Shown here piece after piece: positions 57,902-64,000 of a DNA stretch of 64,000 nucleotides. Position 1 is the first letter of the stretch. The number at the start of each line of letters is the position of its first letter. The stretch is from NCBI RefSeq assembly GCF_023206215.1, contig NZ_CP065800.1:2356001-2420000 (forward strand), in the 5' to 3' direction. The notes beneath the pieces are model-generated. The model was given only the letters and a program-made list of their open reading frames with translations. It was not told where the DNA came from and ran no database searches. Made by a program: the position numbers and the translations under genes. The stretch comes from Butyrivibrio fibrisolvens (GTDB lineage Bacteria > Bacillota > Clostridia > Lachnospirales > Lachnospiraceae).

Positions 57902-58327
57902 TTAAGCTATAAGACTTCCTTCATTCATGCGGCAACGCTTTGCCAGAGTGTCGAGCTCTGTATTGTAGTCAGCTACATTCTGATGCTTTGAGCACTTTGA
58001 AAAATAGAATGTTTCACCCATAACAGTCTCAACAGCTACAGCCTTAAAACTGTAGTCATAAGAACCATAAAAACAATTGGAGCTGTAGACATTGGTGATG
58101 TCCTTGATCGGAAGGATTACTAAGGACTTTTTAAAGTCTCCATAGTGACAGACATAATTAGCAGTGATCATGACATTGGCTTTTGCAAGATGCATAGCGC
58201 CGGCCCCTTGTGCTTCTGTAAGGAATGAACTTAGAAGCTCCTTGCCACGGCCATTTTCGAGAGCTTTATAAACGGCAGCAGCATTTTTCTCCTTGTCCAT
58301 GTTAAATACTTTTTCAAACTTTGGCAT
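57902..58327 (-). CDS. Hypothetical cytosolic protein
   Basis: The start is set at the ATG giving MPKFEKVFNMDKEKNAAAVYKALENG because AGGAGG lies 6 bases upstream; the longer frame from 58456 adds 43 residues without support. The protein has 141 residues, with a beta-rich centre (SLVILPIKDITNVYSSNCFYGSYDYSFKAVAVETVMGETFYFSKC), somewhat like PH-type domains. Function unknown. Confidence 0.65.
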   Translation of the reverse strand: MPKFEKVFNMDKEKNAAAVYKALENGRGKELLSSFLTEAQGAGAMHLAKANVMITANYVCHYGDFKKSLVILPIKDITNVYSSNCFYGSYDYSFKAVAVETVMGETFYFSKCSKHQNVADYNTELDTLAKRCRMNEGSLIA

Positions 58328-58516
58328 GTTACTCCTCCTAAAACTTATTATTACTAATCTATTGCCCCCCTTTGGGCATAGACTAGCATTATAGCATGTA
58401 TTATTCATCCCAGCAATTAAACTATATAAAGAGTTACCGTTGTGTATAAAAGTCAAAGAATGTATAGTTAATAAAGCTGTTAAAAAAGCTAGTCTAAAAA
58501 GGATGTGTGATTCTAT

Positions 58517-59887
58517 ATGATTTTGGAAAAAATATATGAACTTAAGTACTGGGATGAAGTTTCACATACAACGCTTAATCCAAATGGTCCGGGAGCAGTG
58601 AGAATACACCTTGTACCGCCTAAGTTCTTTTGGCATAAAAATGTTCCTTCCGTATGTATTCTGAATGGAAATTATATCCTGCCTCTGGGAGAGTCTCAGG
58701 CAATCCTTCTGACAGAGTTCATACGTCATGTGAATGAATTCGGTGAAGGAGCTATGAGTGATGAACAGTTAAAGGAAATCCTGGAAGATACCTATAGCTG
58801 TGTCAGGAAAGTATATCCGAGAGTTCCAAAGGATATCATTGTTGCAGATTTAGATGAGCTTGTGGGAGTCATAGAAGATGTGGCATTGACAGGTTATACT
58901 GATGCTGACATCCCCCTTATGTCAATAGGAGAGTATGCGCCCTATATGCTTGCTCCTCACAGGATGGATCTTATGGTCAGTGCTATGACTAGGGATGGCA
59001 GATGGAACTGTAATCAGAAATGCTCGTACTGTTATGCAGCAGGCCAGTTGGCTTCATCTCAGGAGGAGCTATCTACAGATGACTGGAAAGAAATAATAGA
59101 TGACTGCTATGATGCAGGAATCCCTCAGCTTACCTTCACGGGAGGTGAGCCGACTATGAGACAGGATCTGTTTGAGCTGATTGCTTATGCAAGATGGTTT
59201 GTTACAAGACTTAATACCAACGGTATTAATCTTACGCCTGATTATTGCAAAGGGCTTCGAAAGACAGATCTAGACAATGTCCAGATTACTTTTTATTCAT
59301 ATGAAAAAAGTATACACGAATCTCTTACAGGTGTTTCGTGTTTCGAAAAGACAGTAGATGGAATCAAAAATGCTATAAATGCCGGGCTGTCTGTAAGTAT
59401 CAATACGCCTTTATGTTCTCTTAATTCTGATTATGTGAAGACACTTCAGTTTCTTCATGAACTAGGGGTTATCTATGTTACTTGTTCGGGAATGATTCCG
59501 TCAGGCAATGCTATAAGACAGGATCAGCAAGATGATCAGCTTACGAAGGAAGAGCTTACAAGCATATTACAAAAAGCTGCCGATTACTGCAGAGATAACG
59601 ATATGGAGATACAGTTCACATCTCCCGGTCAGGTCTTGGAAGATGATCTTAGGAAGATAGGACTTAATGTTCCGTCTTGCGGAGCGTGTCTTAGCAATAT
59701 GGCGGTGACTCCAGGTGGTAAGGTTGTATCCTGTCAGAGCGCCCTTTCAAGCCCGGTTCTTGGTGATATGCTTGAAGATCCCTGGGACAAGATCTGGAAT
59801 AGCAGAAGGTGCAGAGCTATAAGGAATGAGTCTGCCAAGATGATGCAGAAATGTCCATTACAAGAGGTGAATAGTATTGAGTTATAG
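58517..59887 (+). CDS. Radical SAM/SPASM maturase-like enzyme
   Basis: The protein has a CxxxCxxC iron-sulphur motif in RWNCNQKCSYCYAAGQ (about residue 165), TFTGGEPTMRQDLFELI, and a SPASM-type C-terminus (CGACLSNMAVTPGGKVVSCQS, ending with KCPLQEV). About 160 residues precede the core, possibly including a peptide-recognition segment (LPLGESQAILLTEFIRHVNEFGEG). SPASM enzymes typically modify peptides or proteins. Its stop overlaps the start of the Cys-Ala-tailed membrane protein by 11 bases, so that protein is the obvious substrate candidate. Start at the ATG at 58517. Confidence 0.85.
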   Translation: MILEKIYELKYWDEVSHTTLNPNGPGAVRIHLVPPKFFWHKNVPSVCILNGNYILPLGESQAILLTEFIRHVNEFGEGAMSDEQLKEILEDTYSCVRKVYPRVPKDIIVADLDELVGVIEDVALTGYTDADIPLMSIGEYAPYMLAPHRMDLMVSAMTRDGRWNCNQKCSYCYAAGQLASSQEELSTDDWKEIIDDCYDAGIPQLTFTGGEPTMRQDLFELIAYARWFVTRLNTNGINLTPDYCKGLRKTDLDNVQITFYSYEKSIHESLTGVSCFEKTVDGIKNAINAGLSVSINTPLCSLNSDYVKTLQFLHELGVIYVTCSGMIPSGNAIRQDQQDDQLTKEELTSILQKAADYCRDNDMEIQFTSPGQVLEDDLRKIGLNVPSCGACLSNMAVTPGGKVVSCQSALSSPVLGDMLEDPWDKIWNSRRCRAIRNESAKMMQKCPLQEVNSIEL

Positions 59888-61151
59888 AAAAAGTAGATAT
59901 CCAAAGAGAAAGCCTATTAAAATAAGACGCATCAGGAAAAGAAGAAATAGAATAGTAAAAAATGTTTTGAAGATAATAATTCCATTTTTGTTATTATATT
60001 GTTTTTTTGTATTTTGTATTGTGCTGATAAACGGATCAGATGGTAATGGCAATAATACAGGCAATAACATAGATAGTAGCGTAGCTATAGAGAATTCTGA
60101 TCGTCCTAACGGGGACTATATTTTTGATAATGAATACAATATAGGGTACAGGGCATATGATAGAGGTTCGGATCATATTGATGTATCGGATTATAAAGGT
60201 GATCATCGTGATGAAATCCTTGATTATGTCATTGAGATAAGTCCTGATATGAAAGACGGATCACTCTATATGACTTACAGCATACGCTGGCTTGTGCTGG
60301 ATTCTTATGACGATGAACTTACATGGGTTAAGGTAGGTATACCAAATAAATACACAGAAGATATAAAAGCATTAAGCGATAATATTGATTCTATATATTA
60401 TATAGAGAACTCTGGTGATTATGTGCGTATAGATTTTGATGACTCCTATAGAGAAGGGGATGTAGTAGAATTTTCTTTTTCTATACATGCGCACAGGCTC
60501 TATACTGATAGCGGAGCATTTAGGCATTATAGCTATACTCCGGGGTGGTTTGATGAAATAGACGTGGACCGCGTAATGGTTATATGGGATATTCATGACA
60601 ATTCCAAGACCTCCAATATTGTATGTGAAAATACGAATATTAAAGAGGAAGACGGGATGATCTTCTTTACGAGATCGCTTGAAGCAGGACGCCGTTTTGA
60701 GATAAGTATAGATCTGCCGGAAAAAGATTTTGAAGTAAGTGATTCCTATAACGAAGAGCTTAAGGATTATTCTGATGATATAGGATTTTTATTAATATTT
60801 ATAATGTTGATAGCAGTGCTTTCACTTTCGCTTTCAAGTTTTATTTTTGAAATAAAGGCAATAATATGGTCTATGGATGCATATATAAAAGGAAGATCTG
60901 TAAAAAGAATGCCCAGGAAGACGTTTTCTGATTATATGAAACAATATAGAAGAGATCATATAATGGAGTATGAAAAGACTTTATCTAATCGAAGATCCGG
61001 GCATTATGGCAGCTACAGAGGCGGAGGAGGCTGTGCATGCGCCTGCGCATGTGCTTGTGCAGGCGGTGGCCGGGCAGGCTGCAGTACCAAGGATTTTTAT
61101 GGTACAATGTTAGATACAAAGCAGATTCACAGAATTATTGCAAGATCATGA
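59877..61151 (+). CDS. Membrane protein with a cytosolic Cys-Ala repeat tail
   Basis: The first 27 residues are strongly basic, then a membrane helix (VLKIIIPFLLLYCFFVFCIVLI). An extracellular domain follows (DGSLYMTYSIRWLVLDSYDDELTWVKVGIPN..., resembling DUF2207-type domains) to about residue 300. A second membrane helix (IGFLLIFIMLIAVLSLSLSSF) leads into a cytosolic tail. The tail carries GGGG then five Cys-Ala repeats, GGGRAGC and STKDF; cysteines are at 386, 388, 390, 392, 394 and 402. By the positive-inside rule the tail faces the cytosol, where the radical SAM enzyme would act. The start is a TTG with AGAGGTGA upstream. Confidence 0.8.
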   Translation: MSYRKSRYPKRKPIKIRRIRKRRNRIVKNVLKIIIPFLLLYCFFVFCIVLINGSDGNGNNTGNNIDSSVAIENSDRPNGDYIFDNEYNIGYRAYDRGSDHIDVSDYKGDHRDEILDYVIEISPDMKDGSLYMTYSIRWLVLDSYDDELTWVKVGIPNKYTEDIKALSDNIDSIYYIENSGDYVRIDFDDSYREGDVVEFSFSIHAHRLYTDSGAFRHYSYTPGWFDEIDVDRVMVIWDIHDNSKTSNIVCENTNIKEEDGMIFFTRSLEAGRRFEISIDLPEKDFEVSDSYNEELKDYSDDIGFLLIFIMLIAVLSLSLSSFIFEIKAIIWSMDAYIKGRSVKRMPRKTFSDYMKQYRRDHIMEYEKTLSNRRSGHYGSYRGGGGCACACACACAGGGRAGCSTKDFYGTMLDTKQIHRIIARS

Positions 61152-61258: not shown

Positions 61259-64000
61259 ATGGCATCAAAACTTTTACTTGTCGATGGACACAGTATTCTT
61301 AACAGGGCCTTTTATGGTATGCCTGATCTGACCAATTCCGAAGGTCTTCATACCAATGCGGTTATTGGCTTTTTAAATATTTTCTTCAAACTTCTTGATG
61401 AGGAGAATCCTGACTACGTAGTCGTTGCCTTTGATACTAGTGCGCCTACATTCAGACATAATATATTCAAAGAGTATAAGGGAACCCGTAAACCTATGCC
61501 GGCAGAGCTCCATGAGCAGGTGCCGCTTCTTAAAGAGGTTCTTGATACTATGGGCGTAAGGCGTTATGAAGAGCCGGGACTTGAAGCAGATGACATCCTT
61601 GGAACACTTGCAAAAAGAGCAGAATCTCAGGGTATGATCGTAACGCTTGTATCAGGAGATAGAGACCTTCTGCAGATAGCAAGTGACAATATCCTTATAG
61701 CTAACCCTAAGACTAAGGGCGGACAGACAACTGTAGAGAGGTATCACACCCAGGAAGTTATAGATGAATGGGGCGTAACTCCTGAGAAGTTCGTAGAACT
61801 TAAGGCTCTTATGGGAGATTCATCTGATAATATCCCCGGAGTTCCTAAAGTTGGACCTAAGACTGCCAAGGAACTCATGCAGACTTATGGCTCTATAGCA
61901 GGTATCTATGAGCATGTAGAAGAGATCACCAAGAATGCTATAAGAGAGTCACTTAAGGCCAATAAAGAAAGCTGCGACCTTTCATATACTCTGGCTCTTA
62001 TCAAGACGGATGCAGACTTTGAACTTCCATGGGACAGTGCAAAACGTGTTAACTATTTAAATGAAAATGCATACAAAGAGTATAAGAGGCTTGGCTTTAA
62101 GAGACTCTTATCCAAGTTCTCTCAGGAAATTGTTGATAAGGCTTTTGCAAGTGTTGGAGAATCGGGTAATACGAATGCTGTTGATGCAGCTTTTAATGCA
62201 GCTTCCAATGCAGTATCTAATGCAGCTGATCCTAATGGAATCGCTTCAAATGGAGAGGCTATTAAGGGTGCAGCTTTGGACGGAGTATCTGTTGATAAGG
62301 CATCTGCAGGGGCTGTTGCTGATACAAGTAATTTAAATACTAAGTCTTCATCTACCGGTAATATAGAAGAAGCTGGTGATAATCAGGATGAGATTATTAT
62401 AAATCTCCTTAAACAGGTTCCGCAGCAGATAGAAGCTATATCAGTTACTTCATTTGACGAAGCAGAAGATATTATAAGAAAAGCGAAAGAGTATGCTGCA
62501 GGTAATAATGACAGATTTATAGGCTATAGCGTCATAGAAGATTCCAAAGATCCTGATGATTTCATCGGTCTTGGCATATCCTACGAGAATTGCAAAGCAT
62601 ATTTCTTAAGGCATACAGAGAAGTTTACTTTAGAATACGCAGGTAAGGTTCTTGAAGATCTGTCCAAGGATTGCAGACTTACAACTTTTGATATTAAGAA
62701 TACCTACCATCTTTTTACCCCATATGAAATTGACCATAAGAAGGAAAAAGGTGATTTTGATATACTTATAGGCGCTTACCTTCTTAATCCCTTAAAGGAC
62801 GACTACACTCCTGAAGATATAGCAGGAGAGCATCTTGGAAGGATGATGAGAAGCTATAAGGAGCGCTTTGGTAAGAGCAGCCTTAAAGAACTTATAGAGG
62901 TTCCACAGCAGATGACACTGGATCTTGGAATACCTATGCCTGCTGATGATGATTCTGCCAAGAAGTCTTCCAAGAAGTCCAAGAAGGCCCTGGAGCCTCA
63001 GATCCTTCCGGAAGATGCTCTTAAACAGATCGTTGAGTATGCTGCAGAAATTGCCAATACATCACTACTCGCAGCGCCGATTATTGAGAAGAAGCTTGCG
63101 AATACCAAGATGCTTGATCTTATGAATGATATTGAGATGCCGCTTTCTTTTGTCTTATATTCTATGGAAAAAGAAGGTATCATCTGCAGGCGCGATGCTC
63201 TTAAAGAGTATGGAGATCAGCTCACAGGAAGAATAGCAGAGCTTGAGTGCAATATTTATAAAGAGGCAGGAGAAGAGTTCAATATCAATTCTCCCAAGCA
63301 GCTTGGAGTTATACTTTTTGAAAAGCTTGGATATGAAGGCGGCAAGAAGACCAAGACCGGATATTCTACATCAGCTGACGTACTTGATAAGCTTGCACCG
63401 GAGCACCCTTTTGTCAAGGATATCCTTGAATACAGAGCACTTACCAAGCTTAAGAGTACCTATGCAGACGGCCTTGCAGACTATATCGAATCCGACAACA
63501 GGATTCATACAGTATTCAATCAGACGATAACTGCAACAGGAAGAATCTCATCTTCTGAGCCTAACCTTCAGAATATTCCTATGCGTACAGAACTGGGACG
63601 AGCTATTCGTAAGGTATTCGTTCCCAAGGATGGGTACGTATTTGCAGATGCCGATTACAGCCAGGTAGAGCTTAGAATCCTTGCAGATATGTGCGCTGAT
63701 GAGGGACTTCTTGAAGATTACAGATCAGGCAAGGATATACACAGAGCAACAGCTTCCAAGGTATTCCATACTCCTTTTGAAGAGGTTACTGACACTCAGA
63801 GACGTAATGCCAAGGCGGTTAACTTCGGTATCGTATACGGCATCAGTGTGTTCGGTCTTGCCAATGATCTTGGTATAAGCCGCGAAGAAGCCAAGGGATA
63901 TATGGAAGAGTATTTCAAGACATACCCTGGAGTTAAGGCTTATCAGGAAGCTTCTGTTGCATATGCCAAGGATCATGGATATAGTATCACGACATTTGGA
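61259..64000 (+). CDS. polA: DNA polymerase I (3' end outside window)
   Basis: The 5' nuclease domain (LLLVDGHSILNRAFYGMP..., GDRDLLQIASDN) and polymerase motifs A (DADYSQVELRI) and B (RRNAKAVNFGIVYGIS) are intact. An Ala/Asn/Ser-rich linker of about 80 residues (62150-62390) separates the nuclease from the 3'-5' exonuclease-like region, and a Lys/Ser-rich linker lies near 62950. The exonuclease region lacks the DxE of motif I (it reads FIGYSVIEDSK), so proofreading is probably absent, as in many Gram-positive Pol I enzymes. Start at the ATG behind AGAGGAC. Confidence 0.9.
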   Translation, partial: MASKLLLVDGHSILNRAFYGMPDLTNSEGLHTNAVIGFLNIFFKLLDEENPDYVVVAFDTSAPTFRHNIFKEYKGTRKPMPAELHEQVPLLKEVLDTMGVRRYEEPGLEADDILGTLAKRAESQGMIVTLVSGDRDLLQIASDNILIANPKTKGGQTTVERYHTQEVIDEWGVTPEKFVELKALMGDSSDNIPGVPKVGPKTAKELMQTYGSIAGIYEHVEEITKNAIRESLKANKESCDLSYTLALIKTDADFELPWDSAKRVNYLNENAYKEYKRLGFKRLLSKFSQEIVDKAFASVGESGNTNAVDAAFNAASNAVSNAADPNGIASNGEAIKGAALDGVSVDKASAGAVADTSNLNTKSSSTGNIEEAGDNQDEIIINLLKQVPQQIEAISVTSFDEAEDIIRKAKEYAAGNNDRFIGYSVIEDSKDPDDFIGLGISYENCKAYFLRHTEKFTLEYAGKVLEDLSKDCRLTTFDIKNTYHLFTPYEIDHKKEKGDFDILIGAYLLNPLKDDYTPEDIAGEHLGRMMRSYKERFGKSSLKELIEVPQQMTLDLGIPMPADDDSAKKSSKKSKKALEPQILPEDALKQIVEYAAEIANTSLLAAPIIEKKLANTKMLDLMNDIEMPLSFVLYSMEKEGIICRRDALKEYGDQLTGRIAELECNIYKEAGEEFNINSPKQLGVILFEKLGYEGGKKTKTGYSTSADVLDKLAPEHPFVKDILEYRALTKLKSTYADGLADYIESDNRIHTVFNQTITATGRISSSEPNLQNIPMRTELGRAIRKVFVPKDGYVFADADYSQVELRILADMCADEGLLEDYRSGKDIHRATASKVFHTPFEEVTDTQRRNAKAVNFGIVYGISVFGLANDLGISREEAKGYMEEYFKTYPGVKAYQEASVAYAKDHGYSITTFG

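Follow-up and report, generated by a model that had tools for sequence, protein, structure and literature searches.

A maturase-like radical SAM enzyme paired with a two-pass membrane protein bearing a conserved Cys-Ala tail

Results

A conserved gene pair in Butyrivibrio fibrisolvens

A 64,000-nucleotide stretch of the Butyrivibrio fibrisolvens genome (contig NZ_CP065800.1, positions 2,356,001 to 2,420,000), hereafter the window, contains two adjoining genes, one encoding a radical S-adenosylmethionine (SAM) enzyme and the other a two-pass membrane protein whose predicted cytosolic tail alternates cysteine and alanine residues. The two open reading frames (ORFs) overlap by 11 bases (59877-59887), as was reported in an earlier, sequence-only reading of this DNA. 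The pairing of enzyme and membrane protein, and the conservation of the tail, hold across genomes. The tail is likely to be the substrate of the enzyme, and it is probable that the enzyme modifies it, whatever the chemistry.

58517..59887 (+): radical SAM enzyme with an N-terminus resembling a RiPP recognition element (RRE; RiPP, ribosomally synthesised and post-translationally modified peptide) and a Twitch/SPASM-like C-terminus; 456 amino acids (aa), ATG start (ORF, Pfam, model, fold comparison)
59877..61151 (+): two-pass membrane protein with Cys-Ala tail, putative substrate; 424 aa, TTG start (ORF, homologues, model)

Pairing of the enzyme and the tail across genomes

A one-genome-per-species collection was scanned for the motif CACACAGGGRAGC, which yielded at least 119 stretches with 122 tail ORFs. 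With regard to the listed ORFs, 23 of the 122 have under 300 bases upstream and are not judgeable; 98 of the other 99 share their stretch with the enzyme. Three of the 23 were looked up in their genomes, and in all three the enzyme directly adjoins the tail gene (L023, from Gemmiger formicilis ATCC 27749; L067, from Hungatella hathewayi WAL-18680; L105). Tail genes lacking a radical SAM neighbour, which the sequence-only reading had named as the observation to look for against its proposal, are thus reduced to a single 5'-truncated copy among the judgeable loci. The distribution is wider than the Lachnospiraceae and, by their record titles, many carriers are gut and rumen anaerobes.

Starting from the enzyme, a search with its alignment (A1, 89 rows) at E <= 1e-50 gave matches in 5 of the 196 genomes sampled from the order and in 8 of the 341 sampled from the class, which makes the module sparse (2.6% and 2.3%, respectively). 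The alignment of the membrane protein (A2, 94 rows) matched the identical five genomes in the order. At a threshold of 0.001 it matched 14 of 341 in the class, the eight carrying the enzyme having best E values of 6.1e-28 or lower. The six additional matches are weak (2.5e-6 to 5e-4) and are, by eye, four DUF2207-like proteins, one VWA/FHA-like and one TPM-like; the Cys-Ala tail is absent from all six. In a first set of 61 genomes, five besides the window's own gave a match to the membrane protein at 0.001, four of them with enzyme and tail; the fifth (G024) is a weak match (E 5.6e-4) in whose locus neither was seen.

Ten of the 12 distinct genomes positive for the enzyme have a readable tail in the enzyme locus. 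In G420, the contig end truncates the membrane copy next to the enzyme, and a tail gene is found on a different contig. In G457, the contig ends without a tail having been read next to the enzyme, and a different contig contains a short tail-like match. G457, G528 and G536 (L140, L142 and L141) carry a diverged enzyme subfamily (534-551 bits, motif CPLxCxCCYAD), and the two tails read from it, CACACACACAVGGRVGCSERGYQ and CACACACACAGGGRVGCSERGYQ, end in GGRVGCSERGYQ instead of GGRAGCSxKDFY. As the diverged subfamily has its own form of the tail, enzyme and tail vary together.

Some copies are interrupted. One stop is reported in the matched span of both G457 and G528. In G536 (L150, 5663-9953), the membrane gene is split, an 89-aa N-terminal piece lying beside the enzyme and the rest, with the tail, about 2 kb away; the intervening opposite-strand ORFs resemble, by eye, an insertion-sequence transposase. 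The membrane gene of L008 (5019-5979) is in two ORFs and L038 (6625-7068) has a short tail ORF alone, the enzyme being present in both; these broken genes are frameshifts or sequencing errors.

Make-up and inheritance of the module

The module appears to contain just these two families. Among 1003 ORFs from 132 stretches, judged by recurrence across the stretches rather than by one-by-one annotation, 107 stretches contain the membrane family and 93 the enzyme, and no third family occurs in more than 16, the 16-stretch cluster itself looking like a chained mixture. In 91 of the 98 paired loci, the enzyme gene precedes the tail gene on the same strand; it lies downstream in five loci and in divergent orientation in two. 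Two tail-bearing membrane paralogues, in tandem or divergent, accompany one enzyme in L013, L028/L203, L071, L096 and L146.

The distances between enzymes and between ectodomains are strongly correlated in 64 pairs (r = 0.857; 0 of 2000 permutations as high), and, of the 25 enzyme splits with good support, only 2 contradict the tree of the ectodomains. The correlation and the trees show long co-inheritance rather than function. In a careful tree of 72 enzymes, the Coriobacteriia form a single clade (100/99), and the Clostridia require three changes. The nearest relative of the window enzyme is that of the Butyrivibrio record L071 (path 0.34), with the same-genus L002 and L003 at 1.35 and 1.37. 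Transfer or old paralogy is the likely cause of this pattern, to which contamination of metagenome-assembled genomes may contribute.

The Cys-Ala tail

The cytosolic tail of the window protein, which reads CACACACACAGGGRAGCSTKDFY.., comprises the following elements.

61032..61061 (+): five Cys-Ala units CACACACACA, aa 386-395 (ORF translation)
61062..61082 (+): GGGRAGC, aa 396-402 (ORF translation; homologues)
61083..61148 (+): C-terminal segment STKDFY... (STKDFYGTMLDTKQIHRIIARS), 22 residues, aa 403-424, predicted to form a short end helix (sequence, model)

The array and the glycine-rich motif together (aa 386-402) read CACACACACAGGGRAGC. The sequence-only reading described a tail ending at the Cys-Ala block; the five units and GGGRAGC are present as it described, whereas the 22 residues after aa 402 place the end further on. 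This last segment is a possible recognition ('follower') segment.

The membrane protein has 2781 homologues at E <= 0.001 among 8000 scored candidates. Among the best 120 of these, which were listed, 118 carry at least (CA)3 and then GGGRAGC; the remaining two deviate slightly from this pattern. The tail also appears when it is not part of the query: searching 331 candidates with the ectodomain only (residues 95-300) retrieved 14 proteins, every one of which has the tail. At each of the 13 core positions, 41 to 72% of the pairs among 133 distinct tail windows show synonymous codon differences; as mixed synonymous codons encode the array, it is no microsatellite. These windows were picked by pattern, so that residue invariance is by construction except at the pattern-free places, where 132 of the 133 windows have a further CA unit ahead of the core and 131 of the 133 have the Lys of KDFY. 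Kept despite an ectodomain identity of 33% (mean across the 64 pairs), written with mixed codons and tied to a single enzyme family, the motif is more than chance.

The radical SAM enzyme

The enzyme belongs to the radical SAM superfamily, as it has the CX3CX2C motif in 89/89 rows, a Radical_SAM match above cut-off (PF04055, 77.6 bits; cut-off 29.5) and a TIM-barrel core fold. It also passes the cut-off for SPASM (PF13186, 32.4 bits; cut-off 21.5). In the copies of Pfam and NCBIfam searched (25 of the 72 NCBIfam families being listed), no specific family was found for either the enzyme or the membrane protein. Its main features are the following.

58562..58891 (+): RRE-like (PqqD-like) region at the N-terminus, about aa 16-125, in which strands precede three helices (model, structural alignments, weak PqqD profile match)
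59009..59032 (+): CX3CX2C, C165-C169-C172, SAM-binding cluster (89/89 rows of A1)
59414..59416 (+): codon of the invariant Cys300 after barrel strand 292-298 (89/89 rows; strand from the model)
59678..59854 (+): C-terminal auxiliary-cluster region with invariant C388, C406 and C446 and variable C391 and C432 (A1; SkfB alignment)

Cys300 is a candidate active-site residue. The SPASM signature comprises seven C-terminal cysteines for two auxiliary clusters. The C-terminal domain of the window enzyme has five, of which C388, C406 and C446 are invariant in 89/89 relatives and sit, in the model and the SkfB alignment, about as in the hairpin domain of Twitch enzymes, that is, before the hairpin, after the hairpin and after the helix. 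As just three of the five are invariant, a one-cluster Twitch type fits better than a two-cluster SPASM type. For the cysteines described as SPASM-type from the sequence alone, Twitch-like appears to be the better label.

The structural model of the enzyme (predicted local distance difference test, pLDDT, 92) has as its best fold matches two RiPP maturases, namely the sactisynthase SkfB, which matures the sporulation killing factor (PDB 6efn; 20% identity in the structural alignment), and the streptide C-C cyclase SuiB (PDB 5v1t, 5v1s; 16%). Strands 16-57 followed by helices 59-75, 82-99 and 105-125 are predicted at the N-terminus. The alignments start within this RRE-like region (residue 28 with SkfB, residue 18 with SuiB), with a warning from the tool that the N-terminus is barely tested, and they are 58-81 residues longer than the core-only alignment of 283 residues with an anaerobic sulfatase-maturating enzyme (anSME). 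The N-terminus matches the PqqD profile weakly (hhalign probability 20%; 0 of 200 shuffles equally good). Judging from the model, the enzyme probably carries an RRE. The RiPP-maturase fold and this predicted N-terminal topology make it likely that it acts on a peptide substrate.

The membrane protein and its ectodomain

The remainder of the membrane protein comprises two membrane segments flanking a folded domain. The hydrophobic segments were computed on P0001, a database copy 99% identical to the window protein.

59973..60029 (+): first membrane segment, aa 33-51, basic N-terminus inside (hydrophobicity; model helix 17-56)
60210..60719 (+): extracytoplasmic beta-domain, aa 112-281 (topology; fold comparison; model, with a pLDDT of about 90 or more over most of the domain)
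60780..60836 (+): second membrane segment, aa 302-320 (hydrophobicity; model helix 298-338)

One early and one late hydrophobic segment are observed in 197/212 family proteins, and in 176/212 the residues after the last segment are more positive than those before it. Both termini are therefore predicted to be cytosolic. The model exhibits a beta ectodomain and two long helices, and its pLDDT falls below 50 in the tail (372-410), as expected of an unstructured substrate. The ectodomain, which resembles ribophorin I and the N-domains of M1 aminopeptidases in the fold comparison, is present in 96/96 tail ORFs long enough to judge and has invariant residues of its own.

With its extracytoplasmic N-terminal beta region, transmembrane segment and low-complexity C-terminal tail, DUF2207 (PF09972) has a similar layout. 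Weak matches to it (E <= 0.1, best 0.0021) are found in 23/94 family members, the window protein being without one, and hhalign of the membrane family against five DUF2207-like proteins (L157-L160) gave 92.8% over 60 columns. In contrast, these five, whose open frames measure 603-660 aa, have larger cytosolic parts and no Cys-Ala tail; three of them end Gly-rich (...GGGGAF). The ectodomain is thus weakly tied to DUF2207. In L159 (1132-5741), tandem DUF2207-like membrane proteins have Gly runs as C-termini (GGSSGGGGGGGGGGAF), a layout similar to the Gly-rich linker preceding the Cys-Ala block.

Surroundings of the pair

59862..59869 (+): possible ribosome-binding site AAGAGGTG for the TTG start of the membrane protein (by eye)

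Downstream of the pair, an ORF starting at 61259 resembles DNA polymerase I by eye. The upstream gene (57902-58456, minus strand) is divergent and has a sub-threshold GRAM-domain match (18.5 bits; cut-off 23.6). The second contig of the host genome contains two PqqD-domain ORFs (G000:C2:61418-61615 and G000:C2:52498-52686; 62.1 and 45.5 bits), which possibly belong to RiPP clusters of a different kind.

Discussion

The simplest account of these observations is that the enzyme acts on the tail, since no other neighbour recurs widely, the enzyme is maturase-like and the tail resembles a multi-site substrate. The two genes may form a self-contained post-translational modification module. The membrane protein would be synthesised with its tail in the cytosol, where the anaerobic radical SAM enzyme would bind it, probably via the RRE-like domain. 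The Cys-Ala array would be fed into the active site and hydrogen abstracted from residues of the array, and an open site on the auxiliary iron-sulphur cluster may hold a substrate cysteine. Multi-site thioether (sactionine-like) cross-links of the tail cysteines would be the most likely outcome; this chemistry, favoured because of the SkfB match and the tail cysteines, is put forward tentatively. The product would be a permanently modified, membrane-tethered cytosolic tail of a protein with an extracytoplasmic domain, and its retention on the membrane protein is fairly likely.

Several points weigh against this account. Co-occurrence by itself is no proof of an enzyme-substrate relation, and the quick trees of enzyme and ectodomain have just 23/62 splits in common. 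The thioether synthase CteB aligned with the enzyme over the core only. The RRE was assigned from the predicted topology and two alignment starts, in a barely tested N-terminus with a PqqD probability of 20%, and sequence searches using this N-terminus found no RRE. The array departs from the pattern in 2/120 listed homologues (Cys to Phe in P0012, two extra residues in P0032), so that some of its positions are dispensable. Finally, the truncated tail gene L034 (3631-4446) is the single judgeable one without the enzyme, and a search of its 1.7-Mb genome record yielded no enzyme of this family; the gene looks like a decaying remnant.

The density of cysteines could also suggest that the CxCxCxCxC...C tail is an unmodified site binding Fe-S, Cu or Zn, for which the enzyme makes or inserts the cofactor while leaving the residues unaltered. 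This is unlikely, as the best fold matches of the enzyme are peptide maturases and no cofactor gene recurs nearby in the 132 stretches. Moreover, a plain metal site would not need the Ala residues and GGGRAGC, which are kept alongside the Cys in 14/14 ectodomain-selected proteins. The same conservation is seen in 8/10 enzyme-first tails, the other two having Val changes in GGGRAGC with all Ala of the array kept.

A slightly less probable explanation is a true RiPP, in which the tail would be a precursor core, cut off and released after modification, and the membrane protein an oversized leader. The maturase-like enzyme, its RRE-like N-terminus and the Cys-rich, core-like segment are consistent with this. 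Nevertheless, the enzyme is partnered not with a short precursor but with a two-pass membrane protein of 424 aa whose ectodomain is predicted to be folded, and 96/96 tails long enough to judge are borne by such proteins. The ectodomain, with its own invariant residues, is also unlike a disposable leader. Furthermore, no third gene recurs widely, hence no peptidase or transporter, although some RiPP clusters likewise lack a peptidase or exporter gene, and a tail freed into the cytosol would have no exit route. Permanent modification is favoured over a released RiPP because no third gene recurs and the ectodomain is kept with every tail long enough to judge.

Within the preferred reading, the modification could instead be an epimerisation that converts every second residue, the Ala, into its D form, so that L and D residues alternate along the tail. 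The strict two-residue period of Cys and Ala and the invariant extra cysteine C300 beside the end of a barrel strand agree with this variant, for which we see little probability. A cysteine is critical to radical SAM epimerases, and the second epimerisation of polytheonamide takes place two residues away (PMC8326336). Least probable is a bystander pair, in which the enzyme acts elsewhere and the tail is an unrelated conserved signal co-inherited through operon linkage: direct contact of enzyme and tail is only inferred and operon neighbours can be linked without mutual action, but the linkage persists through swapped order, divergent orientation and unrelated flanks, and tail and enzyme separate in one truncated copy only among the judged loci.

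With regard to known systems, the substrates of SkfB and SuiB are short precursors, secreted in the case of SkfB, whereas the one widely recurring partner of the window enzyme is a two-pass membrane protein. We know of no substrate of QhpD or of anSMEs that is a membrane protein with a repeated motif, and the anSME was aligned over the core only (145-456). SCIFF precursors have six Cys in about 45 residues and their own maturase family; the tail has six Cys within 17 residues, and the enzyme reaches the cut-off of none of the 25 NCBIfam families listed out of 72. The SCIFF/ranthipeptide maturase CteB (PDB 5why, 5wgg) is likewise Clostridial with a Cys-rich substrate, and the wide spread of SCIFF has been taken as an argument against an antimicrobial role (PMC8326336). 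The open auxiliary site of CteB binds a substrate Cys, and SuiB has two auxiliary clusters (PMC6231123). Among the radical SAM pathways that act on repeated motifs, TvgB and TvgA offer a further likeness, poly-cyclopropylglycine formation by a radical SAM enzyme acting repeatedly on the motif TVGG, with the difference that the substrate is a peptide precursor with transporter genes (PMC9062424).

No report of this pair was found in the open-licence literature searched. A 2022 radical SAM survey limited enzyme lengths to 340-450 aa and sought small peptides (PMC9062424); on these criteria, it would pass over most of the enzyme family. Genome mining for small precursor peptides would likewise overlook the pair. 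What is new is that a radical SAM maturase-like enzyme, probably with an RRE, is partnered with an integral membrane protein. Cultured carriers exist, among them the G. formicilis and H. hathewayi strains above, hence testing in native cells is feasible.

It is only a little less probable than its contrary that the Cys-Ala array becomes a rigid rod or ribbon, built of thioether rings in series or of a strand in which L and D residues alternate, and that this remains a permanent part of the structure of the membrane protein. Such a tail could be an anchor at the cytosolic face, a metal or redox site, or a signal-transducing element of an extracytoplasmic sensor- or adhesin-like domain, and it would define a class of modified integral membrane proteins rather than a natural product. 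If the tail is modified, the very regular substrate would make the chemistry easy to read, and integral membrane proteins would join small peptides and a few soluble enzymes as targets of radical SAM maturation.
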